Shown one piece after another: positions 14,507-30,452 of a DNA stretch of 64,000 bases. The notes beneath the pieces were generated by a model that saw nothing but the letters and a program-made list of their open reading frames with translations, made no database searches and was not told the DNA's origin. The translations under genes were made by a program, and so were the position numbers. This DNA comes from Fibrobacter sp. UWB16 (GTDB lineage Bacteria > Fibrobacterota > Fibrobacteria > Fibrobacterales > Fibrobacteraceae). Position 1 is the first letter of the stretch. Each line of letters starts with the position of its first letter. The DNA lies in contig NZ_OCMS01000003.1 in NCBI RefSeq assembly GCF_900215325.1, forward strand, positions 248,001 through 312,000, written 5' to 3'.

Positions 14507-14554
14507 TTAGCCTTGACTAATTAGCCTTGGCTTACTAATTTTAGTCTTGTCTAA
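14507..14554 (+). promoter_or_regulatory. Tandem DtxR-family operators in front of the feo operon
   Basis: TTAGCCTTGACTAA (14507-14520) and TTAGTCTTGTCTAA (14541-14554) both fit TTAG-N6-CTAA. A looser copy, TTAGCCTTGGCTTACTAA, lies between them (14521-14538). They follow a TATAAA -10-like box at 14498. The half-sites resemble those of DtxR/IdeR boxes, and the first gene behind them encodes a DtxR-family regulator, so autoregulation by Fe(II) is likely. Confidence 0.65.
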
Positions 14555-14593: not shown

Positions 14594-15028
14594 ATGGAAA
14601 ACAATCACGTAAAGCTCAGCCAGAGCCTCGAAGACTATCTGGAAATGGTGCATATGCTTCGCTTGGCAAACGGGATTGCCCGTGTCAAGGATATTGCCGC
14701 CGCCCTTTCTGTGAAGATGCCTTCTGTGGCAAAAGCGATTCTTGAACTTAAAAAGCTGGGCCTTGTGACTCAGGAACCCTATAGCGGTGTGGAACTCACC
14801 GAAGAAGGGCGTAAGGCGGCTGCCGATGTGCTGAACCGCCATATTCTTTTGAAGGGCTTTTTAATCCGTCTCGGCGTTTCCGAAGCAATTGCAGATAAGG
14901 ACGCCTGCAGCATGGAACATATTCTTTCGGCTGAAACCCTTTCGATAATCGAAGACTTCATGAAAAAAGGAAATGAAGGTGTCGTTGCGAAAAAGGCGAA
15001 TGCATTAAAGGCAAAAAAAGGAAAATAA
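14594..15028 (+). CDS. DtxR/MntR-family metal-dependent transcriptional regulator
   Basis: The product has 144 residues. The N-terminal winged helix-turn-helix reads VKDIAAALSVKMPSVAKAILELKKLGLV (about 31-58). A dimerisation/metal-binding domain follows (LNRHILLKGFLIRLGVSEAIADKDACSMEHILS), with the usual C-x-x-E-H ligands (CSMEH). It lacks the SH3-like third domain, as in MntR-type members, and ends in a Lys/Ala-rich tail. It leads the feoA-feoB operon, so it most likely senses Fe(II) and represses uptake. Confidence 0.88.
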   Translation: MENNHVKLSQSLEDYLEMVHMLRLANGIARVKDIAAALSVKMPSVAKAILELKKLGLVTQEPYSGVELTEEGRKAAADVLNRHILLKGFLIRLGVSEAIADKDACSMEHILSAETLSIIEDFMKKGNEGVVAKKANALKAKKGK

Positions 15029-15030
15029 CA

Positions 15031-15315
15031 ATGGGTTGTAATTGTGGTTGCGGCGGCAAGTCGCAAACTAAAAAATGGGATTTGGAACCGAAATTTTCGG
15101 ATCTCAAGAAGGGCGACAAGGTTGAAATTGTCGGCTACAATGAGGGCGATGCCCGCTACAAGTCCAAGCTTTTGTCGATGGGACTTGTCCGTGGTGTAAC
15201 GCTTGAAGTCTTGCAGATTGCGCCTCTCGGGGATCCGATTGAGGTGAGTGTTTTGTCGTATCGTTTGTCGCTTCGCAGACAAGAAGCGAACGTTCTTAAA
15301 TTGAAGAGGGTCTAA
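15031..15315 (+). CDS. feoA: Ferrous iron transport protein A
   Basis: The product has 94 residues. A Cys-rich leader (MGCNCGCGGKS) precedes the SH3-like FeoA core (LKKGDKVEIVGYN...RYKSKLLSMGLVRGVTLEVLQIAPLGDPIEV). It lies 2 bp after the regulator gene and its stop overlaps the feoB ATG (TAATG). FeoA is a small cytosolic partner needed for FeoB function. The Cys leader is an uncommon addition that could bind a metal. Confidence 0.92.
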   Translation: MGCNCGCGGKSQTKKWDLEPKFSDLKKGDKVEIVGYNEGDARYKSKLLSMGLVRGVTLEVLQIAPLGDPIEVSVLSYRLSLRRQEANVLKLKRV

Positions 15316-18215
15316 TGGCTCCGAAGCTTTTTACTATTGCAATTGCCGGTAACCCGAACTGCGGTAAAACGGCTCTTTTTAATGCCCTTACGGGTGCTCG
15401 CCAGAGTGTTGGTAACTGGCCGGGCGTGACTGTCGAAAAGAAGGAAGGCTTTTTTGAACTCGGTAACCAGCATATCCGCGTGGTGGACTTGCCGGGTACT
15501 TATGCGCTTTTCGCGAATGCCGAAGACGAACGCGCCGCTGTGGACTACTTGCTCACTCGCGAAGCGGACCTCATTGTCAATATCATTGATGCCTCGAACA
15601 TTGAACGTAACTTGTTCTTGACTTCTCAGCTTGTCGATATGCAGATCCCGATGGTGATTGCGGCGAACATGATCGACATCGCAGAAAAGCGCGGCTTGCA
15701 TTTGGATTTGGATATCCTCGCTGAACGTTTCGGTGTGCCGGTGATTCCGCTTTCTGCCGTGAACGAAAGAAGCATCACGAACTTCATCAGCGAAATGGCG
15801 CATGTTGTTGCGGGCAAGAAGATGACGCCCAAGGCGATTGATTACGGCGAGAAGGTTGAAGCTGCTGTCAAGTATTTGGAGCCGAAGGTCGAGCCGGTTG
15901 CAAAGCTTTTGGATGCGGATGCCCGCTGGGTTTCGCTCATGTACTTGGGCAACGAAAAGAGCTATGCGGACAAGTTTGCCGAAGCCAAGGTGCAGATTAA
16001 CAAGGCCGAAGTCACGCAGATTCTCGGCGAAGAAAGCGAATTTGCGATGGCGGATTCACGCTACAGTTTGGCTCACGAAATTGCAGGTAAGACGATTCTT
16101 TCGAACCGTTCCAAGAGAACCTGGTCCGATAAGCTTGACTCCGTGCTTTTGAACCGTTGGGCTTCGCTCCCGATTTTCCTCTTGGTCATGTACCTGGTCT
16201 TCTGGGTTGCAGTGACGATCGGTTCTGCGTTCATTGATTTCTTTGACGTGCTGTTTGGCGCTATCTTTGTGGATGGCCTTGGCTACTTGCTCACGGATGT
16301 GTTCCATGCGCCGGGCTTTGTGTCTGCAATCCTCGCCGACGGTATCGGTGCTGGTATCCAGACTGTGTCGACGTTCATCCCGGTCATCTTCTTCATGTTC
16401 CTCTGCCTTTCTTTCTTGGAAGACTCGGGTTACATGGCACGTGCCGCTTTTGTGGCGGACCGCTTTATGCGATTCCTCGGACTCCCGGGTCGTGCATTCG
16501 TGCCGATGATGGTTGGTTTTGGTTGTGGCGTGCCGGGCATTATGGGCTCTCGCGTGCTCGAATCCAAACGTGAACGTTTCCTCACGATTTTCCTCGTGCC
16601 GTTCATGAGCTGCGGCGCTCGCCTCCCGGTGTATGCGCTGTTTGCGGCAGCATTCTTTGGAACGCAGGCAGGGACGGTCGTGTTTGCCCTCTACCTCGCG
16701 GGCGTTCTCTTTGCGATCGTGTACGGCTTGATTCTTCGCCGCTCCTTGTTTGTGGGTGAGGCTAGCAACTTTGTCATGGAGCTGCCGCCTTATCACTTAC
16801 CGAAGTTCAAGTCGCTCATGATCCACTCCTGGCTCCGTTTGCGCGATTACGTTATCCGTGCCGGTAAGGTGATTACGATTGCCGTTGCAATACTTGGCTT
16901 CCTCAACAGCTTTGGCTTTGTGGACAAACTCTACACCGAAATCAATGGCGAAAAGACCGAAATCGTGAAGAGCGAAGAAGGCTACGCCATGGTGCAGGAC
17001 GAAAAGGAAGTCCCGCTCCCCGAAGGTGTCGTGATTGACGAATCCAAGGTCCAGACGGAAAGCGAATTTACGGCGGGTAACGGTGATTCCGAAAACAGCT
17101 TGCTTTCTGTAATCGGTAAGGCAATTACCCCGGTTTTTGAACCATTCGGTGTTGAATCCAACAACTGGCCTGCATCTGTGTCGCTCTTCACTGGCCTCCT
17201 TGCTAAGGAAGCTGTGATTGGTACGATGAACTCGCTGTACTCTATGGCAGGCCCTGGCGATGCTGCTGAAGCTCCGAAGGCTGCCGAACCCGCTGCTGTT
17301 GAAAAGGTGGCTGAAGCCCCGGCGCCTGCTGCAGAACCGGTCGCAGTTGCCGATAGTGCTGACGCTCGTCATCCTGAGCAGAGCGAAGGATCCAGTGAAG
17401 TCGCTGTTGCTGATTCCGCAGTCGCTGATAGCGCAGTTGTCGCAGACAGTGCTGCTGCTGAACCTGCCACCGCTGAAGAAAAGCCCCTTATCGCAGGCGT
17501 GGACGAATGCCCTGCCGAAGAAGAGGAAGAAGGTGGTGCTCCGGATATTCTCGGTGCATTCAAGGAAGCCCTTGGCACGATTCCGGAAAACTTGAGTGAG
17601 GTCTTCGGCTCTCTCACGGACATTCTCGGAACATCTGGTGAACTCGAAGCGCAGAATGCCGCAGAACTCAAGAAGGTCACGCTTGATAAGATTCTTGATG
17701 CAAAAGCGATTACTTGCGAAGAATACGCTTCTATCGAAACCTTCAGCGAAGATGAAGGTGCCGACAAGGCTCGCGAAGAAGTCTTTGCAAAGCTCGCTGC
17801 CGCTGGTCTCACGCTGAGCGAAGATGAAATCGGCGCTCTCGAAGAAGGCGACTTGAGCGAAACGGCTGACATCTATGCCAACCTCCGCTCTTACTTCCAC
17901 AACCCGGACAAGAACGGAAACCCGGTCGATGGATTTAACTGGCAGGTGTTTGCATTCCTCATCTTCATCTTGCTCTATGTGCCGTGTCTTGCTGCGATGG
18001 GTGTCGTGGTTCGCGAAATCGGCCTTGGGCTCGGTGTGCTGATGGCTGTGGTGCAGACAATCCTCGCTTGGGCTGTCGCGGTGCTCCTCTACCAGGTTCC
18101 GGTTGGTGGCAACGTGTTCTGGATTGTAAGCTCGATCATCGTGCTTGTGGCAACATTCGTGTTCCTTAAGCTCTTTGGTATGAGCGCAAATAAGAAAGGG
18201 CGTTTCGAAGACTAA
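15315..18215 (+). CDS. feoB: Ferrous iron transporter B with an enlarged periplasmic/cytosolic insert
   Basis: This is the inner-membrane Fe(II) transporter with an N-terminal GTPase. G motifs are GNPNCGKT (10-17), DLPGTY (about 58) and NMID (about 117). Two Gate regions follow (GYMARAAFVADRFMRFLGLPGRAFVPMMVGFGCGVPG; SCGARLPVYALF). At 966 residues it exceeds the usual 650-780. The excess lies between GLLAKEAVIGTMNSLY (about 640) and the last helices (FLIFILLYVPCLAAMG, about 880), as an Ala/Pro/acidic region. Residues about 685-697 (DARHPEQSEGSSE) are a translated copy of the dispersed GTCATCCTGAGC repeat. Confidence 0.95.
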   Translation: MAPKLFTIAIAGNPNCGKTALFNALTGARQSVGNWPGVTVEKKEGFFELGNQHIRVVDLPGTYALFANAEDERAAVDYLLTREADLIVNIIDASNIERNLFLTSQLVDMQIPMVIAANMIDIAEKRGLHLDLDILAERFGVPVIPLSAVNERSITNFISEMAHVVAGKKMTPKAIDYGEKVEAAVKYLEPKVEPVAKLLDADARWVSLMYLGNEKSYADKFAEAKVQINKAEVTQILGEESEFAMADSRYSLAHEIAGKTILSNRSKRTWSDKLDSVLLNRWASLPIFLLVMYLVFWVAVTIGSAFIDFFDVLFGAIFVDGLGYLLTDVFHAPGFVSAILADGIGAGIQTVSTFIPVIFFMFLCLSFLEDSGYMARAAFVADRFMRFLGLPGRAFVPMMVGFGCGVPGIMGSRVLESKRERFLTIFLVPFMSCGARLPVYALFAAAFFGTQAGTVVFALYLAGVLFAIVYGLILRRSLFVGEASNFVMELPPYHLPKFKSLMIHSWLRLRDYVIRAGKVITIAVAILGFLNSFGFVDKLYTEINGEKTEIVKSEEGYAMVQDEKEVPLPEGVVIDESKVQTESEFTAGNGDSENSLLSVIGKAITPVFEPFGVESNNWPASVSLFTGLLAKEAVIGTMNSLYSMAGPGDAAEAPKAAEPAAVEKVAEAPAPAAEPVAVADSADARHPEQSEGSSEVAVADSAVADSAVVADSAAAEPATAEEKPLIAGVDECPAEEEEEGGAPDILGAFKEALGTIPENLSEVFGSLTDILGTSGELEAQNAAELKKVTLDKILDAKAITCEEYASIETFSEDEGADKAREEVFAKLAAAGLTLSEDEIGALEEGDLSETADIYANLRSYFHNPDKNGNPVDGFNWQVFAFLIFILLYVPCLAAMGVVVREIGLGLGVLMAVVQTILAWAVAVLLYQVPVGGNVFWIVSSIIVLVATFVFLKLFGMSANKKGRFED
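17367..17399 (+). repeat. Intergenic-type repeat translated inside feoB
   Basis: CGTCATCCTGAGCAGAGCG followed by AAGGATCCAGTG is the same family as 3563-3610 and 6561-6608 but lies in frame in feoB, giving RHPEQSEGSS. Confidence 0.8.
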
Positions 18216-18290: not shown

Positions 18291-18304
18291 TTAGACTAAA
18301 CTAA
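18291..18304 (+). promoter_or_regulatory. DtxR-family operator upstream of the 34-residue ORF and porin
   Basis: TTAGACTAAACTAA fits TTAG-N6-CTAA, as at 14507, 14541 and 19690, and links the porin to the iron regulon. Confidence 0.55.
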
Positions 18305-19689: not shown

Positions 19690-19703
19690 TTAGATTAATC
19701 TAA
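19690..19703 (+). promoter_or_regulatory. Perfect DtxR-family palindrome upstream of DUF3793-flavodoxin
   Basis: TTAGATTAATCTAA is a perfect 14-bp palindrome fitting TTAG-N6-CTAA. It lies about 200 bp before the DUF3793 gene, with a terminator-like hairpin between. Confidence 0.6.
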
Positions 19704-19872: not shown

Positions 19873-19899
19873 ACTTTATACTAAATACTTAGGTTGTTC

Positions 19900-20460
19900 A
19901 TGGATAGAAACCTTGATTCCTGCTTGGTTCGACAATGTGCCCCGACACTTGCGGGGCACAAGTTGGGCAATCTCTTTTGTGTTGATGTTGCTGATGGTGT
20001 TTTGCTTTGCAATATCCTTGCGCGTTGGAATCAGGCCTTGAACCCTAAGGGCGTTATTGCTCGCGTTATTGCTGAACGCTGTGGACGTTATTTTATTTAT
20101 GTCTACCGGAATAGCGCTTTACAGAATTTGGGATGCTCTTGCGAAGTTCGTAATTTTTTGAAAGGTTTTGGTTACAGTTGCTTTGATGCTGAATCGCTTT
20201 TGAACTTTTTTCAGGTTCGCATGACGCGCTCGGTGTGCTTTCCGCATGAAGTGGGCGTGTTTTTGGGCTACCCGCTTGACGATGTGAAAGATTTTATTAC
20301 GTACGGCGGTAAAAATTACAAGCTGATTGGCTGCTGGAAGGTCTATAACGACGTGCCGAATTCCATGCACATTTTTGAAGTATACAAAAAGTGTCAAAAG
20401 ATTTTACGAGAACGATTTGAATCAGGCGATTCTTTGGAAGAATTGACTGTAGCGTGTTAA
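19900..20460 (+). CDS. DUF3793 family protein
   Basis: The product has 186 residues. Family landmarks are QCAPTLAGHKLGNLF near the start, ALNPKGVIARVIAE, FIYVYRNSALQNL, the VCFPHEVGVFLGYPLDDVKDFI block and GCWKVYNDV. DUF3793 genes commonly sit next to flavodoxin and Feo genes in anaerobes; their function is unknown, and a role in redox or iron metabolism is inferred from context. ATG 19900 is preferred to the in-frame TTG 19894. It lies 29 bp before the flavodoxin gene. Confidence 0.85.
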   Translation: MDRNLDSCLVRQCAPTLAGHKLGNLFCVDVADGVLLCNILARWNQALNPKGVIARVIAERCGRYFIYVYRNSALQNLGCSCEVRNFLKGFGYSCFDAESLLNFFQVRMTRSVCFPHEVGVFLGYPLDDVKDFITYGGKNYKLIGCWKVYNDVPNSMHIFEVYKKCQKILRERFESGDSLEELTVAC

Positions 20461-20489: not shown

Positions 20490-20918
20490 ATGAACAAAAT
20501 TGCTGTTATTTTCTGGACAGGTACGGGTAACACCGAAGTTATGGCGAATGAAGTGGTTGCTGGCGCAAAGGAAGCTGGCGCCGATGTGACGCTTTTCAAT
20601 ACGTCTGCTTTTTCTACCGATAAGGCCCAGGAATTTGACAAGTTTGCTTTGGGCTGCCCGGCAATGGGTGCCGAAGAACTCGAAGATAGCGAATTCCAGC
20701 CGCTTTATGATCAGCTGAAGGCTCAGATTTCGGGTAAGAAAGTCGTGCTTTTCGGCTCTTACGGCTGGGGTGGCGGCGAATGGATGAATCCGTGGAAAGA
20801 AGATGCCGCAAATGCGGGCCTTGTGCTTGCTGATGAACCGCTCGCTATTGAAGGCGCTCCGGATGATGCTGGCAAGGAAAAGTGCCGTGAACTCGGTAAG
20901 GTCCTTGCGCTTTCGTAA
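20490..20918 (+). CDS. Flavodoxin
   Basis: This is a 142-residue cytoplasmic FMN electron carrier. The phosphate-binding loop is TGTGNTEVMA (about 10-19) and the FMN loops are GCPAMGAEELEDSEF (about 57) and GSYGWGGGEWM (about 88). ATG 20490 follows an AAAAGGAAC site; the longer frame from 20454 overlaps the previous gene. Co-transcription with DUF3793 behind an iron-type operator fits the replacement of ferredoxin by flavodoxin when iron is scarce. Confidence 0.93.
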   Translation: MNKIAVIFWTGTGNTEVMANEVVAGAKEAGADVTLFNTSAFSTDKAQEFDKFALGCPAMGAEELEDSEFQPLYDQLKAQISGKKVVLFGSYGWGGGEWMNPWKEDAANAGLVLADEPLAIEGAPDDAGKEKCRELGKVLALS

Positions 20919-20943: not shown

Positions 20944-21001
20944 ATGTTAGACTCTCTAACAAAATTAGAGAGTCTAACATTGTTAGAAAATCACTAACAA
21001 T
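20944..21001. promoter_or_regulatory. Compound palindrome upstream of the ferrosome-like genes
   Basis: A perfect 16-base inverted repeat (20944-20959 with 20965-20980, 5-base loop) is followed by ATTGTTAG-N7-CTAACAAT (20979-21001). Both are built from TTAG/CTAA half-sites. There is no T-run, so an operator array is more likely than a terminator. Confidence 0.65.
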
Positions 21002-21153
21002 GTTAGCGCCAATCTCGTGAAACTCAACTGCGGTGCGGGGTTGCGAGAGTTAGATATTTAATTTATTCGTAATTTGCAATTGGAGGGGAGAGTATCTAAT
21101 TTTTTAAGGCGGGCAAGTTGCTCCGCTGATTTTTCTTTAATAAGGAGAAACAT

Positions 21154-21381
21154 ATGTCTATGTTCAAAAACGAAAAATTCTGGCTCGTTGTTGCCGGTGC
21201 TGTGGGTTCTGCTGTTGCTAAGAAAGTGCTCAAGGCAAAGAAAACACGCGAACTTGCTGTTCAGGGACTTGCTCATGGCATGAAGTTCACGGCTGACGCC
21301 AAGGCTGCTTTCCAGGATATGAAGGACGAGGCTGCCGACATTTGCAACGACGCTAAGGCAGAAGCAGGTCTCGACAAGTAA
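21154..21381 (+). CDS. Small DUF6110-like membrane-associated protein
   Basis: The product has 75 residues: one hydrophobic helix (FWLVVAGAVGSAVAKKVL) near the N-terminus, then AKKTRELAVQGLAHGMKFTADAKAAFQDMKDEAADI, an amphipathic helical tail. AAGGAG precedes ATG 21154. The pattern matches short proteins encoded beside P1B-type ATPases (DUF6110/DUF1490-like). It lies 13 bp before the ATPase gene. In ferrosome clusters small membrane proteins accompany FezB; equivalence is an inference. Confidence 0.65.
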   Translation: MSMFKNEKFWLVVAGAVGSAVAKKVLKAKKTRELAVQGLAHGMKFTADAKAAFQDMKDEAADICNDAKAEAGLDK

Positions 21382-21394
21382 GAAGCGAAAGCTT

Positions 21395-23494
21395 ATGAGA
21401 TTCAGAATCGTTTACGATAAGCCGGGTCGCCTTCGCTTGCGTGCTGGGGCGTACGCTTTTGAACGTGAATATGAAGCGCGCATTCACAAGGCTTGCTTGA
21501 GTGAGCCTTGCGTTAAAAGTGTTGTGGTGCGTAGCGTCAATGGTGGCCTCCTTTTTGAATATTCCGCCAAGGCGGGCGATTTCGAGACGAGCCGTAAGCA
21601 GATTCTTGATTTTGTAAGTGCGCTCAACCCCAAAGAGTTGCCTGAATGCGATGGTGAAACGGAATACCAGTTGCAAGCTTTGGACGATGGCTTTAAAGCA
21701 AGCCTCACGGGAATGATTGCAAGGCGCTATTTGTCGCGTTGGTTTTTACCGCTTCCGATTCGCACGGCAATTACGGTGGTTCGTGGATTGCGTTATGTGG
21801 CTCGCGGAATTTCGACGCTCATGAGCGGAAACCTCACCGTCGATGTTTTGGACGGAGCTGCGATTGGTGCTAGCCTGCTCCAGAAAAATTATGAATCCGC
21901 AGGTACGGTCATGTTCCTTTTGGGTGTTTCGGGCTTGCTGGAAGATTACACCAAGGCGCGTACGCGCACGGCTTTGACAGGTAGCCTCGCCGTCAAGGTA
22001 GATAAGGTCTGGGTCGTGAAAGACGGCGTAGATACTTTGGTGGATATGAAGGACGTCCAGGTCGATGACTTGGTCCGCATCCGTTCCGGTAGCATGATTC
22101 CTGTTGATGGTCGCGTGATTGAAGGCGAAGCCTTTGTGAACGAATCGACGATGACGGGCGAATCCAAGGCGGTGATGAAGACCGCCGGCAGAATCGTTTT
22201 TGCAGGGACTGTTCTTGAAGAAGGCGCGATTCTCGTGAAGGTGCATGCGGTCAACAGCAATACGAAAATTCAGAAAATCGTGGAACTGATCGACCGTAGC
22301 GAAGACTTGAAGGCGAGCGTGCAGAGCCGTGCGGAACATTTGGCGGATAGCATTGTGCCGTTCAGCTTCCTGGGCTTTGGGCTTACGCTTTTGCTGACGC
22401 AGAATATTTCGCGTGCGGTTTCCATCTTGATGGTGGATTACTCTTGCGCGATAAAACTCTCGACTCCGATTTCCGTGATTTCTGCATTGCGTGAAGCGGC
22501 GGATATGGACATGACGGTGAAGGGCGGCAAGTACCTGGAAGAACTTGCTCTTGCCGATACGATTGTGTTCGACAAGACGGGAACGCTCACGAAGGCGGAA
22601 CCGCGACTTGAAAAGATTATTCCGTTTGGCGAATATTCCGAAAAGCGAATCTTGAAAATTGCGGCGTGCATCGAGGAACATTTCCCGCATAGCATGGCTC
22701 GTGCGATTGTCAAGGCGGCAATGGAACGCAATATCAATCACGCCGAAGAACATGCCGATGTGCAGTACATCGTGGCGCACGGTATCGCAACATCGCTCAA
22801 GGGCAAGCGCGTGGTCATCGGAAGCAAGCACTTTGTCATCGAAGACGAAAAGGTCAATGTTTCTGAAGCGAACCAGGCGATTATTGACGAACAGGCGGGT
22901 GCCGCATCCGTGATTTACCTCGGCATTGGCGGCGAGTTGGCGGGTGCAATTTGCATTGGCGACCCTCCGCGTGAAGAAGCTGCAGATGCCATTCGCGGAC
23001 TGCGTGAAAGTGGCATCAAGAATGTGGTGATGCTGACGGGCGATAGCTTGAATGCTGCAGAACGCGTTGCGGAACATTTGGAAATCGATACGTTCTTCGC
23101 GCAGGTCTTGCCAGAAGACAAGCACCATTATGTGGAACGCATGAAGGCCGAAGGCAAGCGCGTGATTATGGTGGGCGACGGCATTAATGATGCTCCTGCT
23201 CTTGCTGCCGCGAATGTCTCTGTTGCCATGAGCGATGCTTCGGATATTGCCCGCGAAACTGCCGATGTGACGCTCCGCCGCGAGAATCTCGAAGACCTCG
23301 TGGAACTGCGCCTCTTGAGCCAAAAGCTGATGGAACGCATCTCCGAAAATTACCGCTTTATAGTTGTTTTCAATACAAGCTTGCTTGTAGGCGGTTTTCT
23401 CGGACTCCTCTCGCCGACAACGTCTGCCTTCTTGCACAACGTATCGACAATGGGCATTTGCGCAAAAAGCATGACCAAGCTGAAAGTGGAGTAA
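21395..23494 (+). CDS. P1B-type heavy-metal ATPase, probable ferrosome FezB-like iron pump
   Basis: The product has 699 residues. A-domain TGES is at about 254, phosphorylation motif DKTGT at about 393 and GDGINDAPA at about 594. The TM metal site is DYSCAIKLSTP (about 347), of the SCA type rather than CPC. The N-terminus lacks a CxxC metal-binding domain and instead carries GRLRLRAG at about 11-18, reminiscent of the R-X-L-R motif I recall being described for FezB of ferrosomes, which load iron into a membrane compartment. The TTAG operator array and the small partner gene support an iron role. A Cu or Zn exporter is less likely. Confidence 0.75.
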   Translation: MRFRIVYDKPGRLRLRAGAYAFEREYEARIHKACLSEPCVKSVVVRSVNGGLLFEYSAKAGDFETSRKQILDFVSALNPKELPECDGETEYQLQALDDGFKASLTGMIARRYLSRWFLPLPIRTAITVVRGLRYVARGISTLMSGNLTVDVLDGAAIGASLLQKNYESAGTVMFLLGVSGLLEDYTKARTRTALTGSLAVKVDKVWVVKDGVDTLVDMKDVQVDDLVRIRSGSMIPVDGRVIEGEAFVNESTMTGESKAVMKTAGRIVFAGTVLEEGAILVKVHAVNSNTKIQKIVELIDRSEDLKASVQSRAEHLADSIVPFSFLGFGLTLLLTQNISRAVSILMVDYSCAIKLSTPISVISALREAADMDMTVKGGKYLEELALADTIVFDKTGTLTKAEPRLEKIIPFGEYSEKRILKIAACIEEHFPHSMARAIVKAAMERNINHAEEHADVQYIVAHGIATSLKGKRVVIGSKHFVIEDEKVNVSEANQAIIDEQAGAASVIYLGIGGELAGAICIGDPPREEAADAIRGLRESGIKNVVMLTGDSLNAAERVAEHLEIDTFFAQVLPEDKHHYVERMKAEGKRVIMVGDGINDAPALAAANVSVAMSDASDIARETADVTLRRENLEDLVELRLLSQKLMERISENYRFIVVFNTSLLVGGFLGLLSPTTSAFLHNVSTMGICAKSMTKLKVE

Positions 23495-23544: not shown

Positions 23545-23578
23545 AAGTATTCCCTTTGTTTTAGGGAATACTTTTTTT
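23545..23578 (+). terminator. Terminator after the P1B-ATPase
   Basis: AAGTATTCCCT and AGGGAATACTT form a perfect 11-bp stem followed by seven T. Confidence 0.9.
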
Positions 23579-23703: not shown

Positions 23704-24510
23704 ATGTGCGTGCTAGTGAAATCACTTTCTGAATACATTGATGCTGTCAATGAGTTTCGCAAAAACTCTGAATTGTCAAAAACGATTCTTTTTCGTGGAC
23801 AGTCAAATGCTGATTGGTCTATTCAGTCTTCTCTTGAGCGTGCGGGAGTATTAAATATTCTGTTCGAAGAATATTATAAAACAATTGATTGTTATAAACC
23901 AGAATTTAATGCCTATGGAAAAAATTTTAAACGAAATGTTAAATTTCCGAACGGTTACAATTTTGATTTTTCTGATTACAATCCTATTAGCTATAACCAA
24001 TTTCCGGAAATAGAATATTTAACTTATTTGAGACATCACGGATTTCCTTCGCCTTTAATTGATTTTACTCAATCGGAATACATTGCTTTGTTTTTTGCGT
24101 GTGAAAATGCTATTAATGTGAATAAGGCTAATACTAATGGAAAAATCTTCGCTTTAAATAGTAATTTAATAGATGCTTTTTCTTGTGGATATAAAGAATT
24201 TCATAGAATCGGTCATTATGTTGATACTGATCCGAGGCATATTGCCCAGCAATCTGAATATTTGATAGCATGTTGTTTTAGCTCTGATAAATGGATGTTT
24301 GTTCCATTTGATCTTGAACAGAACTTGCGGGATTCCTCAGTAAAAGGAAATTCTGTTCTAGAAATTGAAGTTGTTGCATCTGCTAAAATGGAGCTTTTGC
24401 AAGAGCTAAATAAAATGAATATAAATCATTTCACTTTATATCGTGATGAGGATTCGCTTGTGAAAAAAATGAAATTTGACTTTCTTCAAAAACAAAGGAG
24501 GTTAGGATGA
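23704..24510 (+). CDS. FRG-domain protein
   Basis: The product has 268 residues. It begins with the FRG signature TILFRGQSNADWSIQSSLERAG (about 27-48), and the second conserved block is YLRHHGFPSPLIDFTQSEYIALFFACE (about 107-133). FRG domains are widespread in accessory and defence DNA; a nucleotide- or ADP-ribose-related activity has been suggested but not settled. Composition is AT-rich. Its end overlaps the next gene by 4 bases (ATGA), so the two are translationally coupled. Confidence 0.8.
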   Translation: MCVLVKSLSEYIDAVNEFRKNSELSKTILFRGQSNADWSIQSSLERAGVLNILFEEYYKTIDCYKPEFNAYGKNFKRNVKFPNGYNFDFSDYNPISYNQFPEIEYLTYLRHHGFPSPLIDFTQSEYIALFFACENAINVNKANTNGKIFALNSNLIDAFSCGYKEFHRIGHYVDTDPRHIAQQSEYLIACCFSSDKWMFVPFDLEQNLRDSSVKGNSVLEIEVVASAKMELLQELNKMNINHFTLYRDEDSLVKKMKFDFLQKQRRLG

Positions 24511-25139
24511 TATTTCCAATCTTGAAAAAAATAGGCTATTTCTTGGGCGGCTTGCTTGGTATGTTTATGGCTGCTGCATCTATGGGGATTATGCTAAGTT
24601 GCAAATATGACATATTGAGTTGGAAAGCTTGTGGCTGTATTATATTTGTTCTTTTGGGCATATTTGTTGCGATTGGTGGTTTTGTAGAATTTAAAGAATA
24701 TGATTTAAAAAGGAATGAGAAATGCTCGCGAAAGGTTTTTTGGGATGAAATGAAAGAGATCCTTAAAACTATTGTGGGTTATCCTATTTTCGCTTTTTTG
24801 GCGGTTTGTTTTATGTGTTTTGTTGCTACCATAATATGGACTATAACCTCATTTCCAGAATTTCTCTTGCACTTTATTCATTATGGACCATCGACAGATC
24901 TGTATAATATAATTATTCCTGAGAGCTTTCGTGCTACTAAGCCTATAGAGGCGATTTATTCTCTTATGATGGCAGGCGTGTTTGCAATTCTATGTTTTTT
25001 TGGCGCAATTTTTTTGATACACCGTTTTTTAATTAAAGAATTATATGAATTTATATCGGAAGAACTAGATAAAATAAATTGTAAAATTGATAATGTTATG
25101 AAAGAAGTTTCTAAAATCAATAAAGAGGGAATGCAATAA
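24507..25139 (+). CDS. Membrane protein coupled to the FRG gene
   Basis: The product has 210 residues with four hydrophobic segments at about 10-33, 43-62, 88-118 and 148-172. A coiled-coil-like charged tail follows (ELYEFISEELDKINCKIDNVMKEVSKI). The family was not recognised. The 4-base overlap with the FRG gene and the shared low-GC composition indicate one unit; a membrane effector partnered with an FRG sensor or enzyme is a plausible but untested reading. A terminator follows. Confidence 0.55.
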   Translation: MIFPILKKIGYFLGGLLGMFMAAASMGIMLSCKYDILSWKACGCIIFVLLGIFVAIGGFVEFKEYDLKRNEKCSRKVFWDEMKEILKTIVGYPIFAFLAVCFMCFVATIIWTITSFPEFLLHFIHYGPSTDLYNIIIPESFRATKPIEAIYSLMMAGVFAILCFFGAIFLIHRFLIKELYEFISEELDKINCKIDNVMKEVSKINKEGMQ

Positions 25140-25337: not shown

Positions 25338-26273
25338 ATGAGCGAAGAAAATAATGCAACGAGACGAAACCACGATCCGTTTTTCCGTTGGCTATTTTCT
25401 GATGTTGGGCATCTTAGAAATCTGTTGGAACTTGCTGGCAAAGTAAATTATGATGTTGGTGAATTCATATCGGCTATAAATATGGATACTCTAGTCCGTA
25501 TTCCAGATTCGTATTCAGAGGTTGACGATACGGGTGAAGCGGATTTGGCGTTTCGTGTGAATGTGTCGACAGGTGCACCGATTTTGGTTGGAATTCTGTT
25601 AGAACATAAATCGGGACGGGATCCAAATGTTCTTGATCAGATTGCTCGTTATGTCAATTCTGTGATGAAGATTTATGATAAGAATCGTGCATTTAGCGGA
25701 ATTCCGACGATGGCAATTATCTTTTATAATGGACGGGAAAATTGGAATCCACTTAAGAGACTTGAAGAGGATTATCCGGAGTATTTTCGTGGTTCTGTAT
25801 TGCCCTTCCATTGCGCTTTTGTGAATATGGCGGATATACCCGATAGCGACTGTTTGACATGCGAAGACGTTGCAACTGGAATGGGCGTTGTCGCAATGAA
25901 GTATGCGTTCAATAAGGAAAAGCTGTTAGAGGTCTTGCCTCAATTCCATGATTCCTTGCGAAAAATGCACCGTAATGAGGCGTCTTGTCTATTGCAAAAA
26001 ATAAACATATATTTGAAAGAGTACGTTGATGAAGGTGTTCTCAAGGAGCTGGATATGGCATTTGTAAGTGTTGGACAAAAATACGGCTTTGTTAGTGCCG
26101 GTGATGTGTTTCGTCAAAGACTTGCCGAAGCTCGCAAAGAAGTGGACGAAGAACGGAAAAAAGCTGAAGAAGAAATGCTTAAAACGGCTAGGGGACTTTA
26201 TGAAGATGGGGTTCCCTTAGAGACTCTCGTTCGCAGATTTAATCTGACGGAAGAACAAATTTGTGGAAAGTGA
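25338..26273 (+). CDS. Rpn/YhgA-like recombination-promoting nuclease
   Basis: The product has 311 residues. Family landmarks are NHDPFFRWLFSD at the N-terminus, GEADLAFRV (catalytic Asp) and VGILLEHKSGRD (E-x-K) near residues 75-98, i.e. the PD-(D/E)XK core. IFYNG and RGSVLPFHCAFVNMADIPD follow. The C-terminal tail is a charged coiled coil (RKEVDEERKKAEEEM) ending in a short helix-turn-helix-like stretch (TLVRRFNLTEEQI). These proteins are often annotated as transposases (PF04754); known Rpn members are DNA endonucleases that raise recombination. No inverted repeats flank it. Confidence 0.85.
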   Translation: MSEENNATRRNHDPFFRWLFSDVGHLRNLLELAGKVNYDVGEFISAINMDTLVRIPDSYSEVDDTGEADLAFRVNVSTGAPILVGILLEHKSGRDPNVLDQIARYVNSVMKIYDKNRAFSGIPTMAIIFYNGRENWNPLKRLEEDYPEYFRGSVLPFHCAFVNMADIPDSDCLTCEDVATGMGVVAMKYAFNKEKLLEVLPQFHDSLRKMHRNEASCLLQKINIYLKEYVDEGVLKELDMAFVSVGQKYGFVSAGDVFRQRLAEARKEVDEERKKAEEEMLKTARGLYEDGVPLETLVRRFNLTEEQICGK

Positions 26274-26477: not shown

Positions 26478-28847
26478 TTAGTGAACTTGCTTAATGCGTT
26501 TCTCTTTTCCGTAGGGCTTGGTGACGTACACGAGGGCGGTGGTGAGCGTGTAGTCGGCAACGAGGGCGGCGGCAAGGCCAATGATGGAAAGTAATCCGAC
26601 GTTGTGCAATGCGCCCATTGGGCTAAAGATGAACACGAAGAACATCGCACACAGAATGAATGTTGTCATGCCCATCGTCTTTCCGATTTCGCGGTAAGAG
26701 AGCAATAGCGCTTTTTTGTAGCTGCCGGTGCGTTCGTAACCGTATTTGATGTGGTTATTCATGTGGATAGTGTCGTCAACGGCGATGCCCAAAATCATCG
26801 GCATTACGATCATCGTTATCATGTCAAGAGGCATTCCCGAATAGCCCATGACGCCACCGATTAAAAGTACGGGGGCGACGTTTGGAATCATGCCGATAAG
26901 ACCCGCCTTGATGCTCCCGAATGCGAGAATCATCATGATGGCGATAATCACGAATGATCCTCCGAACGAACGCAATAGTCCGTTCACGAGCTTGCCGTTC
27001 ATTTCGGCGTAGTTTACGACTTCACCGACGATTGAAGTTTTGGCGTCCGGGAAAATTTGCACGGCGTACGATTTTGCGGAATCGAGGTCTTCTACGATTT
27101 TCTTGGCATCGTATCCGGAAAGTTCTATGTGGATAAATGTTGTTTTGTAATCTTCGTCCATGCGCTCAAAGAGTGCATCGGCATCTGAAATCTCGTAGAG
27201 GAACAGCAGTTGCGTAAGCATGTCTTGCGCGTCAGGAATCTTGTAGTATTCCGTGCTGTCGGCGTTAAGTGTGCGGTTCATTTCTTTCACGAGCCGCGTT
27301 ACGGATTGCACGCGGGGCTTGTCGCCTGAAATTTTTGTGAGCTGGAGCGTACCGAGCTTTTGTTCTAGCGTTTCGATGCGTTTCATGTTGGCGGGATCTT
27401 TCAGTGCGTCGTTGTCGTTGAATTCAACCATCACGTTGAAATCGTAAAGGCTTCCGAGCTTACCGCTGAGCATGTCCATGAGTCTTGTGACGAACGGAAT
27501 TTTTTCGCCCATCGTTTTTGTGTAGTCCATGTTCACGTCAATGTTCATCACGCCAGGGATTTGCGCTAACATTATGGCGGCTGAAATCGCGGCGACGATG
27601 CCGCTGTGCCTGCAAACTTTGCGTCCGAAGAATTCAAAGAGAATATCGGCTTTGGTGGCGCCTGCCGCTTTCACTTCTGTCGGGTCGGGCTTTGCGTTTT
27701 TGCCGAAGCTCATAAGAATCGGAATCAAGATGATGACGTACAGATAGACCATGAAGACGATGCCTGCCGAAATACCGCCAATCCAGCGAATCGGGCGGAT
27801 GCCTGCGAACAGGAACGAAATCAGCGAGGCAACGGTGGTAATGACGGTAAAGAGAATCGGCCAGCCAGTTTCTTCGACAGCATTTATGACGGATTCGCGG
27901 CGGTTGCCCGTGCGCCTAAAATGCATGCGGAACGAATTGATGTAATGGATGGAATAGCCGACCGAAAGTGCCATGCCCAAAAGTATGGGGAGCGCGACCA
28001 TGCTTTCGTCGCCGACGATACCGAGCCAAGCGTTTACGCCGAGTACGGATGCGATGCCTCCGACGGTTGCAATGGCAGGGACGATGACTCCGCGCAAAGA
28101 GCGTACGAATAAAATAAGGCATGCGAGCATGACGGCGAAGCCGAAGATGATGCGCATAGCGCATTCACGCGAGATGACTTCGTTTTCTTCCATTTCAGTG
28201 TAGCTCATACCGGTCGGCAAGAACTGGAATTTATCGCTTTGGAATTCTTCGGAGAGGATGACGTTGCGGGCGAAAGGTGCGATGCTGTCTTTGCCGAAAT
28301 CAACGCCGCCTTCGTATGATTTCAACGAGAGAATAACCCATGTTTCTTTTGCGTCGTCAGAGACGATGTTGTTCACGAGCGATTCTCGGCTCATGATGAG
28401 CGATTTCTTGGCGGCGAGTTGTGCTGAATCTGTCGGGATGCCGCTTTCGAATGGGTCGATGACTTCGAATCCCTCATCATTTGCGATGGGGATGGATAAG
28501 TTATGCGTGAGTGAAACGACGCGGTCAGCGTAAGGGACTTCATTTTCGAGGCGTTTTGAAAGTCGGTCGATGGCGCTTAAAACTTCGGGCGCAAAAACAT
28601 CGTTAGCACGGACCATCACCATATAGCCGTCATCGCTGCCGAAAACGTCATTGAAGTGCGCCTGGTCGATTTTGACTTTGTCCCAGTCGTCGAACCATTC
28701 TTCTTCGCTGGCTGTCATTTGTAGTTGCGGAAGCCCGAGGCATGCGGCGAGAGTCACAAGAATTGTTGCGAGTAAAATTAGCCAACGGAATTTGACTTGA
28801 AAACGCCCCAGACGGGCGAAAACTTTATTAACTCGAGAAACTTGCAT
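26478..28847 (-). CDS. RND-superfamily MMPL/HAE3-type exporter
   Basis: The product has 789 residues in two similar halves: a TM helix (WLILLATILVTLAACLGL), a periplasmic loop (about 40-215) and a bundle of five to six TM helices (with AMRIIFGFAVMLACLILFVRSLRG, GMALSVGYSIHYINSFRMHFRR), then the second loop and bundle (GGVMGYSGMPLDMITMIVMPMILGIAVDDTIHM). The D in AVDDTIH is the usual proton-relay position. Family members export lipids, hopanoids or hydrophobic compounds; the substrate here is unknown. No partner adaptor is adjacent. It ends in a basic tail (KEKRIKQVH). Confidence 0.85.
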   Translation of the reverse strand: MQVSRVNKVFARLGRFQVKFRWLILLATILVTLAACLGLPQLQMTASEEEWFDDWDKVKIDQAHFNDVFGSDDGYMVMVRANDVFAPEVLSAIDRLSKRLENEVPYADRVVSLTHNLSIPIANDEGFEVIDPFESGIPTDSAQLAAKKSLIMSRESLVNNIVSDDAKETWVILSLKSYEGGVDFGKDSIAPFARNVILSEEFQSDKFQFLPTGMSYTEMEENEVISRECAMRIIFGFAVMLACLILFVRSLRGVIVPAIATVGGIASVLGVNAWLGIVGDESMVALPILLGMALSVGYSIHYINSFRMHFRRTGNRRESVINAVEETGWPILFTVITTVASLISFLFAGIRPIRWIGGISAGIVFMVYLYVIILIPILMSFGKNAKPDPTEVKAAGATKADILFEFFGRKVCRHSGIVAAISAAIMLAQIPGVMNIDVNMDYTKTMGEKIPFVTRLMDMLSGKLGSLYDFNVMVEFNDNDALKDPANMKRIETLEQKLGTLQLTKISGDKPRVQSVTRLVKEMNRTLNADSTEYYKIPDAQDMLTQLLFLYEISDADALFERMDEDYKTTFIHIELSGYDAKKIVEDLDSAKSYAVQIFPDAKTSIVGEVVNYAEMNGKLVNGLLRSFGGSFVIIAIMMILAFGSIKAGLIGMIPNVAPVLLIGGVMGYSGMPLDMITMIVMPMILGIAVDDTIHMNNHIKYGYERTGSYKKALLLSYREIGKTMGMTTFILCAMFFVFIFSPMGALHNVGLLSIIGLAAALVADYTLTTALVYVTKPYGKEKRIKQVH

Positions 28848-29020
28848 ATTTCCTCCCCAAAAATTTTGCCCGAAAATAACATAACGAGTTTTGTTTTTCT
28901 ACTCCATTCGGACGCGGAAAAAACTGCAATGCATATATATCTGGTTTTAAAGTTAAACAAGGCTAAACTGCGTCTAATTGGAGTAGAATTTTTCGCGGGA
29001 ATTTTCAAGTTTTGGCGACC

Positions 29021-29626
29021 ATGAGAACTACTGGTAAAAAATCTTCGAATACATTGGTGCGTGACCTCGTGAATGTGGGCATTTTTGGTGCACTTTACCT
29101 TGTTCTTTCTGGACTTGGAGCGAGTATCGGTTTTATTCCTGCGTTTATTGTGGTTTCCACATGCGCGGTGAGCTTGGTGACGAGCGTCCCGCTATTCCTT
29201 TTCTTTTCGAAAGTAGAAAGACCTTTACTTTGCTGCGTGCTAATCTGCACCCTTTTCGGCGTTGTCATGATGTTCTCTGGTCATGGAATATCCTATGGCT
29301 TGCTTTGCGTGATGTATGGCGTTTTGGCGGGTCTTTGCTTAAAGCTGTTCCATAAAAATTTTGTGGGTTGCCTGCTTGCCAATGTGATGATTAGCTTTGT
29401 GCCTTCTTCGATGATGATTCCGCTTTGGTCCTCGACCGAAGAATATTTGGCATATTGCAGTTCTGTTTGTGATAGCGCCTATATCGCTCACTTGGCGGAA
29501 CTCTCGAGTAGTTATTGGCCTTTGATTGGACTTTTTGGATTTGGTGCCGCAGGCGCTGTGGTGGGTGGCTTCATTGCTCGTCGCATGATGAAAAAGCATT
29601 TTGAACGCATCGGACTTGCAAAATGA
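29021..29626 (+). CDS. MptD-family ECF transporter substrate-binding (S) component
   Basis: The product has 202 residues and five to six hydrophobic segments, starting LVRDLVNVGIFGALYLVLSGLGASIGF. It contains VMYGVLAGLCLKLFHKNF and ends in a Gly-rich helix (GLFGFGAAGAVVGGFIARRMMKKH). This pattern fits the Trep_Strep/MptD group of putative S components. ATG 29021 is chosen over the in-frame TTG 29012. It is followed by T and A component genes on the same strand, so it gives the transporter its specificity; the ligand is unknown. Confidence 0.8.
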   Translation: MRTTGKKSSNTLVRDLVNVGIFGALYLVLSGLGASIGFIPAFIVVSTCAVSLVTSVPLFLFFSKVERPLLCCVLICTLFGVVMMFSGHGISYGLLCVMYGVLAGLCLKLFHKNFVGCLLANVMISFVPSSMMIPLWSSTEEYLAYCSSVCDSAYIAHLAELSSSYWPLIGLFGFGAAGAVVGGFIARRMMKKHFERIGLAK

Positions 29627-29629
29627 TGT

Positions 29630-29735
29630 CATTGCACGTAGTGCATGACTGTCGGTTCGGTTATGGACAAGCTGCAGCTTGTCCGCAACTCTCACCTTTT
29701 ACGTCATTGCGAGGAACGAAGTGACGAAGCAATCT
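29630..29735. repeat. Cluster of palindromic repeats between the S and T genes
   Basis: Three units follow one another: a GTCATTGCAC-GTA-GTGCATGAC hairpin (29633-29650), the perfect palindrome GGACAAGCTGCAGCTTGTCC (29665-29684), and the GTCATTGCGAGG...GAAGCAATC repeat (29703-29735), which runs into the T component gene. Confidence 0.75.
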
Positions 29736-30452
29736 AGGAATCTTGCGTTTGCATTAGATCCGCGTACAAAATTGTTTTTAGCGGCGGTGGCAAATGGTAT
29801 GATTTTTTCCGCTCCGCTAGTCTATAGCTTGTTGATGGTTGTTGTAGCGTCTATTTTGCTGTTGCTTGAGGGAAAGTGGAAATTTGTTTGCACTTTCTTT
29901 TTTGTTTATTTGTGTGCCGGCTTTTTCTTTGGTCAGGCGAAAAATTTGGATATCGGTACTTCGGGTACGATTATTCTTGCGTCGTTGTTCTTAATGTACC
30001 GTATTATGCCGGCCTGCGCTGTGCTTTATTATGTGATAACAACTACCAAGGTCAATGAATTTTTGGCATGCATGTCGCGAATGCATGTTTCGAACAAGGT
30101 GACGATACCCTTGATTGTGATGATTCGATTTTTCCCGACGGTGTATGATGAATCCCGTGCGATTGGCAATGCCATGAGAATGCGCGGAATTCGCTTGTTA
30201 AGTTTGCGAACTTTAAAAAGTCCAGTGGCGTTTCTTGAATATCGGCTGGTTCCGCTTTTGGTTTCTGTTACGAAAATTGGTGATGAACTTTCGATTGCGG
30301 CGGTGACGCGTGGACTCTCGGCAGAAACAAAACGCACCTGCATTGCAACGATTGGATTCCGCTGGGTGGATTTTGTTGTAATTGCGTATTGTGTTGCTGT
30401 TGTTTTGTTTTATGTCATTCCCGGTTTAACCGGGAATCTCCCTTCCGTATAG
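29721..30452 (+). CDS. ECF transporter transmembrane (T) component
   Basis: This is an EcfT-type scaffold membrane protein, with LDPRTKLFLAAVANGMIFSAPL at the start, several TM helices, and the coupling-helix signature SRAIGNAMRMRGIRLLS (A-x-R-G type) near residue 150. The start is uncertain: GTG 29721 has GAGG 6 bases upstream, both supplied by an intergenic repeat; the frame is open back to TTG 29679, which would add the repeat-encoded VIARNEVTKQS. The last residues (VIPGLTGNLPSV) are encoded by another repeat, so both ends of the gene are built from repeat DNA. Confidence 0.85.
   Translation: MTKQSRNLAFALDPRTKLFLAAVANGMIFSAPLVYSLLMVVVASILLLLEGKWKFVCTFFFVYLCAGFFFGQAKNLDIGTSGTIILASLFLMYRIMPACAVLYYVITTTKVNEFLACMSRMHVSNKVTIPLIVMIRFFPTVYDESRAIGNAMRMRGIRLLSLRTLKSPVAFLEYRLVPLLVSVTKIGDELSIAAVTRGLSAETKRTCIATIGFRWVDFVVIAYCVAVVLFYVIPGLTGNLPSV
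30413..30446 (+). repeat. GTCATTCCCGG-type repeat forming the 3' end of the T-component gene
   Basis: Same family as 23511-23541. It is translated as VIPGLTGNLPS. A GCCCGC...GCGGGC repeat follows at 30466-30490. Confidence 0.75.

Follow-up and report, generated by a model that had tools for sequence, protein, structure and literature searches.

A fezAB-like gene pair in an iron-gene neighborhood of Fibrobacter sp. UWB16 probably encodes a two-gene ferrosome system

By means of gene sets of the fez type, some anaerobic bacteria store iron in compartments enclosed by a membrane. A fez-like gene pair was analyzed in a 64,000-nucleotide stretch of the Fibrobacter sp. UWB16 genome (contig NZ_OCMS01000003.1, positions 248,001 to 312,000; hereafter the window). 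Its two open reading frames, a small membrane-protein gene (fezA-like) and a P1B-ATPase gene (fezB-like), lie on the + strand 13 bases apart, and a genome search found a single copy of the ATPase. The initial annotation had placed this pair at the end of a set of iron genes, which agrees with the gene content upstream: a metal-dependent regulator, FeoA, FeoB, a DUF3793 protein and a flavodoxin are encoded there, and all of these genes fall within 14.6–23.5 kb together with fezAB (Table 1). A terminator-like hairpin 3′ of fezB may close the two-gene unit.

Table 1. Genes, protein motifs and candidate regulatory elements at the fezAB-like locus (window coordinates).
Feature	Position	Strand	Evidence or remark
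Two TTAGn6CTAA boxes	14507–14520, 14541–14554		Upstream of regulator-feoAB
DtxR/MntR-family metal-dependent regulator	14594–15028	+	First gene of feo unit; PF02742 7e-15, PF01325 2e-12
FeoA	15031–15315	+	PF04023 2e-17
FeoB ferrous-iron importer	15315–18215	+	PF02421 4e-61; TIGR00437 above cut-off
TTAGn6CTAA box	18291–18304		Downstream of feoB, upstream of an outer-membrane-protein-like gene
TTAGn6CTAA box	19690–19703		Upstream of DUF3793-flavodoxin
DUF3793 protein	19894–20460	+	PF12672 2e-50
Short-chain flavodoxin	20490–20918	+	TIGR01753 above cut-off
Operator-like array	20947–21006		Before fezA; alternating TTAG/CTAA half-sites, mostly 9-bp period
fezA-like gene, 75 aa	21154–21381	+	TM helix (about 9–28) and long second helix
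fezB-like P1B-6 ATPase, 699 aa	21395–23494	+	About 8 TM helices
ATPase N-terminal ferredoxin-like (HMA-like) domain without CxxC	21395–21619	+	Residues 1–75; AlphaFold2 model
TM4 metal-site motif DYSCA	22436–22450	+	Residues 348–352 (DYSCAIK 348–354)
TM6 HN motif	23435–23440	+	Residues 681–682
Terminator-like hairpin and T run, 3′ of fezB	23545–23573	+	11-pair stem; consensus match only

Beyond the hairpin, an FRG-domain gene and then a small membrane-protein gene follow (23704–25139); because a different gene stands 3′ of fezB in another Fibrobacter locus (L003), this was regarded as a variable spot. Further downstream lie a YhgA-like putative transposase or nuclease gene (25338–26273; PF04754, 4e-15), an MMPL/RND-type exporter gene on the − strand (26478–28847; PF03176, 5e-27), and genes for a Trep_Strep membrane protein and a CbiQ-like transporter (29012–30452) that look like an ECF-type uptake unit.

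Pfam and NCBIfam searches assigned the larger gene product to the heavy-metal P1B-ATPases (TIGR01525, 6e-145). The RLRLR element and the DYSCA transmembrane site noticed by the initial annotation are both present, the former as PGRLRLR at residues 10–16, with R12 and R14 (21428–21436) invariant in the alignments, and the latter in TM4; DKTGTLT occupies residues 393–399. The TM4 motif SCA or SCV was found in 53/54 P1B-6 loci and in 0/84 other P1B loci, while HN in TM6 was found in 54/54 and 19/84, respectively. The TM6 HN has been named as a P1B6 feature (PMC9374683). The claim that the ATPase has no N-terminal CxxC domain held for the motif and not for the domain: CxxC is absent from the first ~120 residues, and an AlphaFold2 model (11-row alignment; mean pLDDT 77.8, pTM 0.62) predicts a ferredoxin-like beta-alpha-beta-beta-alpha fold for residues 1–75, together with about eight TM helices and a P-type core. 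Since this fold is predicted to be kept without CxxC, the domain appears degenerate rather than absent, with the fold retained and the CxxC lost; the match of HMA_2 to it was not significant (E 0.027). The best solved structural matches of the model were Cu, Zn and Cd P1B-ATPases. In addition, the HP motif of the P1B N-domain reads HS here (EEHFPHS; 22688–22693, residues 432–433), as it does in the consensus of mainly clostridial relatives, and HP is retained in Deinococcus and in the six-gene fez type.

The position of the ATPase was evaluated in a careful IQ-TREE phylogeny of 48 rows, with support given as bootstrap/SH-aLRT. All P1B-6 proteins, including the window ATPase, formed one clade (100/99), outside which lay the CopA-type, CPC-HN and CtpC-type pumps. 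Within it, the six-gene fez type split off first (100/99), and the remaining members, from Desulfovibrionaceae, Lachnospiraceae, Clostridioides, Deinococcus and Fibrobacter, made up a DUF6110-linked subclade (100/100) that the window ATPase shares with the ATPases of Clostridioides difficile-type fezAB loci. The Fibrobacter ATPases were joined to that of Anaerotignum at 100/99. A quick tree agreed on the P1B-6 placement, and in neither tree did the ATPase cluster with Cu, Zn or Mn ATPases, the outcome that the initial annotation had named as counter-evidence; its proposal that the protein belongs to the P1B group of FezB is thus borne out. Moreover, a forced grouping of Fibrobacter with the CtpC-type (PacL-linked, CtpC-like Zn pumps) was rejected (lnL lower by 205, AU p = 8e-8). 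Family membership of the ATPase is well supported, and the P1B-6 clade may hold plain plasma-membrane exporters too.

The small upstream protein required an indirect assignment. Its best match was DUF1490 (PacL), at 8e-5 and 23 bits, below the gathering cut-off of 28.4, and alone it does not reach the DUF6110 model. Its Anaerotignum relative, which is 44% identical, passes DUF6110 (2.4e-6), and a profile of the Fibrobacter and Anaerotignum proteins aligned with the clostridial/C. difficile DUF6110/FezA set over 69 columns (92%, E 8e-7). Because of this profile comparison and the Anaerotignum intermediate, homology of the window protein to FezA (DUF6110) is supported. A reading as DUF1490 (PacL) only was dropped on the strength of the tree, the TM4 motif and the missing metal motif: the C-terminal Asp/His motif of PacL is lacking in the window protein, which ends in ...AEAGLDK with no His. 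The description of a small single-helix protein preceding the ATPase was correct as to position, and the helix count was not sustained, as the AlphaFold2 model places helices at 4–26 and 29–70, at low confidence. A small protein with an NEKFW motif precedes the ATPase in 11/11 Fibrobacter loci, and most of these proteins, the window one included, carry K8 and GAVG at 15–18.

Full-length copies of the ATPase occur in 11/25 Fibrobacter genomes, the source included, at 73–98% identity to the window protein. Its distribution is patchy: it is absent or partial in the other genomes (e.g. G002, G007, G009, G012, G016 and G018), among them some near-complete ones from which it is missing, such as G009 (99%) and G012 (96%). 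Among the matches listed, the nearest ATPase from outside the genus is that of Anaerotignum lactatifermentans (Lachnospiraceae, 51%), with further ones in Lachnospiraceae (41–45%) and then Mailhella (42%), and many of the non-genus loci encode a DUF6110-type protein directly upstream. In a second Fibrobacter clade (L008, L009 and L011), the gene before fezA resembles, by eye, the C-terminal part of a TonB-dependent receptor.

For the C. difficile reference, eight genomes (G051–G058) with an exact match to the C. difficile tpi primer were taken among 71 genomes of the C. mangenotii family; the other four primer matches among the 71 had two mismatches. Six of the eight carry the P1B-6 ATPase, and a DUF6110 protein of 131–132 aa (DUF6110 1.6e-22) precedes it in 4/4 loci read. 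The Clostridioides mangenotii genome, considered first as a substitute for C. difficile, is without a P1B-6 ATPase. According to one report (PMC12574912), C. difficile needs FezA and FezB for its ferrosomes and represses both through Fur; the two proteins are encoded by CD630_05910-05920 (PMC11651100). Like the window locus, fezAB of C. difficile consists of two genes, a DUF6110 protein followed by a P1B-6 ATPase of the same 100/100 subclade, and the two ATPases have in common SCA in TM4, HN in TM6, an N-terminal GRxR and no CxxC. They differ in the length of FezA, 75 aa in the window versus 131 aa in C. difficile, where the C-terminal tail is long, and in the presumed control, the window operon lying near a DtxR/MntR-feoAB unit whereas that of C. 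difficile is controlled by Fur.

Other known systems resemble the locus in part. Loci of the Desulfovibrionaceae type, first described in Desulfovibrio magneticus, likewise pair a DUF6110-like FezA with a P1B-6 FezB, and several adjoin FeoA or FeoB; the genomes searched included none identified as D. magneticus itself. Several of them have a third, HMA_2-type gene (FezC-like) after fezB, whereas none was found in the window. For FezC (DUF4405 or HMA_2), no match was obtained in the source genome at E 0.1, and the gene after fezB encodes the FRG-domain protein; with no DUF4405 or HMA_2 protein in the genome, the system is considered a two-gene one. The six-gene fez operon, of the Rhodopseudomonas palustris RPA2333-2338 type and found here as Azospirillum, Hahella and Arcobacter-like clusters, has a P1B-6 ATPase of the same wider clade with DYSCA and HN, but contains extra small membrane proteins, with a YtxH-like protein in place of DUF6110. 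The window locus does not fit this type, having two genes only and an ATPase on the sister branch. Finally, in the PacL1-CtpC zinc platform of Mycobacterium tuberculosis, a small TM protein is also encoded just before a P1B-ATPase, with HN in TM6 and with K followed by GxxG in the TM helix, but CtpC has CPC in TM4 where the window ATPase has DYSCA and falls in a separate clade, and PacL has its C-terminal Asp/His motif.

The association with iron genes recurs beyond the window. FeoA or FeoB was found by tblastn in 12/55 P1B-6 loci versus 1/83 control P1B loci, a contrast that is indicative, as related loci are counted separately and two of the FeoA queries were taken from member loci; the queries were the window proteins and three related ones. 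In L007, L009 and L011, fezAB is followed directly by a DtxR/MntR regulator, FeoA and FeoB, with two regulator genes in L007, where the start of FeoB was observed. The Anaerotignum locus (L038) has DtxR, flavodoxin and DUF3793 genes beside fezAB, the latter two also adjoin fezAB in L040, and a clostridial clade member adjoins FeoA and a Fur protein. For the window regulator, the highest-scoring models are those of MntR (115 bits, below the cut-off of 153), and the source genome encodes two Fur-family proteins. One Fur-family gene in this genome (L159, G000:C3:28200-29500) has a rubredoxin-rubrerythrin gene next to it, as in a PerR-like arrangement.

Candidate operators precede several of these genes; the motif statistics covered the window, the related loci and one pattern search of the genome. 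The array before fezA reads TTAGACTCT CTAACAAAA TTAGAGAGT CTAACATTG TTAGAAAATCA CTAACAATG TTAG and contains two exact CTAACAwTGTTAG palindromes. These two are the sole exact copies in the genome, and CTAACAwTGTTAG was accordingly rejected as a regulon-wide box. The looser CTAACn3GTTAG is kept upstream of fezA in 7/11 Fibrobacter loci (the window and L002–L007); a script found no strict match to it there in L008–L011, in which loose versions were seen by eye. The pattern TTAGn5-6CTAA, picked after viewing the window sequence, occurs seven times in the window versus 1.4 expected, a number that 0/100 shuffles reach, and 6/7 sites lie between 14.5 and 21.0 kb. Moreover, L009 and L011 each have five such sites upstream of their orthologous regulator-feoAB unit, and the Anaerotignum locus has three versus 0.18 expected. 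The half-sites before fezA recur mostly every 9 bp, compared with a 10-bp spacing in the boxes before regulator-feoAB. Given this N5 spacing in the fez array and N6 in the feo boxes, one shared regulator is a candidate only.

Clade, small-protein homology and recurring iron context support the annotation of a probable fez-like locus as one of fezAB type, whose product would be a ferrosome. Our preferred reading, to which we give a probability of about 0.68, is a two-gene fezAB system of the C. difficile type, with FezB as an Fe(II) pump and FezA as a scaffold. In the mechanism that we infer, FezB would use ATP to move cytoplasmic Fe(II) across a membrane through the DYSCA/HN site, while FezA, as a small DUF6110 membrane protein, would concentrate FezB in dense patches of membrane, from which iron-filled vesicles would develop. 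With metal plentiful, the promoter array would keep the operon off; when iron is limiting, the operon would be released along with Feo uptake, leaving the cell able to store iron that comes in afterwards.

Storage and efflux are indistinguishable by sequence, and FezB might instead stay in the cytoplasmic membrane, clustered by the small protein, and expel Fe(II) with no organelle being formed. The pumps of effluxosomes export Zn and Cd. PacL proteins gather P-ATPases into such efflux platforms (PMC9374683, PMC13043812), and the window protein matches DUF1490/PacL too. We nevertheless hold plain export to be rather unlikely: in the tree the ATPase is placed with FezB of C. difficile, apart from the CtpC-type pumps, the small protein is missing the Asp/His metal motif, and nearby feo import genes and a flavodoxin fit expression under iron limitation, which would be odd for a detoxifying exporter.

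The metal itself could be manganese, exported or stored under the MntR-type regulator. DtxR/MntR proteins can sense either metal, and MntR models gave the adjacent regulator its best score (115 bits, cut-off 153). This regulator is nonetheless encoded in a single unit with FeoA and FeoB, TM4 carries SCA, the clostridial clade member has FeoA and a Fur protein as neighbors, and the C. difficile member is reported to be Fur-repressed (PMC12574912), all of which makes a manganese pump improbable. If the locus were a clostridial module gained by horizontal transfer and now either nonfunctional or expressed in some other role, this would account for the patchy presence in the genus and for a closest non-genus relative, among the matches listed, in Anaerotignum (51%) with the same neighbor genes; an intact frame and motifs, kept in eleven genomes with protein identity as low as 73%, render this reading very improbable.

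A broader and more tentative proposal, which we consider possible but would sooner bet against, is that FezA and PacL belong to one scaffold superfamily and that ferrosomes and mycobacterial effluxosomes share one building principle. In both, a P1B-ATPase would be clustered into membrane platforms by a small TM protein that has a GxxG face of small residues, and platforms with FezB would close into iron-storing vesicles. As part of this reading, the window protein would be a bridge, having DUF1490 as its best match and K8/GAVG while sharing homology with the DUF6110 FezA of C. difficile. In PacL2, K9 and G17xxG20 are essential for clustering (PMC13043812). The relation between DUF1490 and DUF6110 has been drawn in the two papers, among those searched, that name DUF6110 (PMC9374683, PMC13043812), with ferrosomes mentioned in neither. 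When profiles of the FezA set were compared directly with three PacL proteins, the matches were weak (E 0.0098 and 0.035), and the link therefore remains a lead.

The usual iron-storage protein is ferritin. Two weak ferritin-family matches in the source genome (26 and 25.4 bits) were rejected as ferritins, both being rubrerythrins, and the genome is without a recognisable ferritin; ferritin matches elsewhere in the genus were mostly weak, with one at 41 bits. Should the preferred fezAB reading hold, lipid-bounded compartments would be the iron stores of an anaerobe that has no recognisable ferritin. A literature search that stopped short of the primary ferrosome papers found no ferrosome report for the host phylum. 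Fibrobacter would then be one more lineage for studying how a bacterial organelle can be made with just two proteins, and the combination of regulator, DUF3793, flavodoxin and fezAB, shared across phyla, would allow its iron control to be tested. The proposed connection of ferrosome FezA to the PacL scaffolds of metal efflux platforms would likewise be open to experiment.
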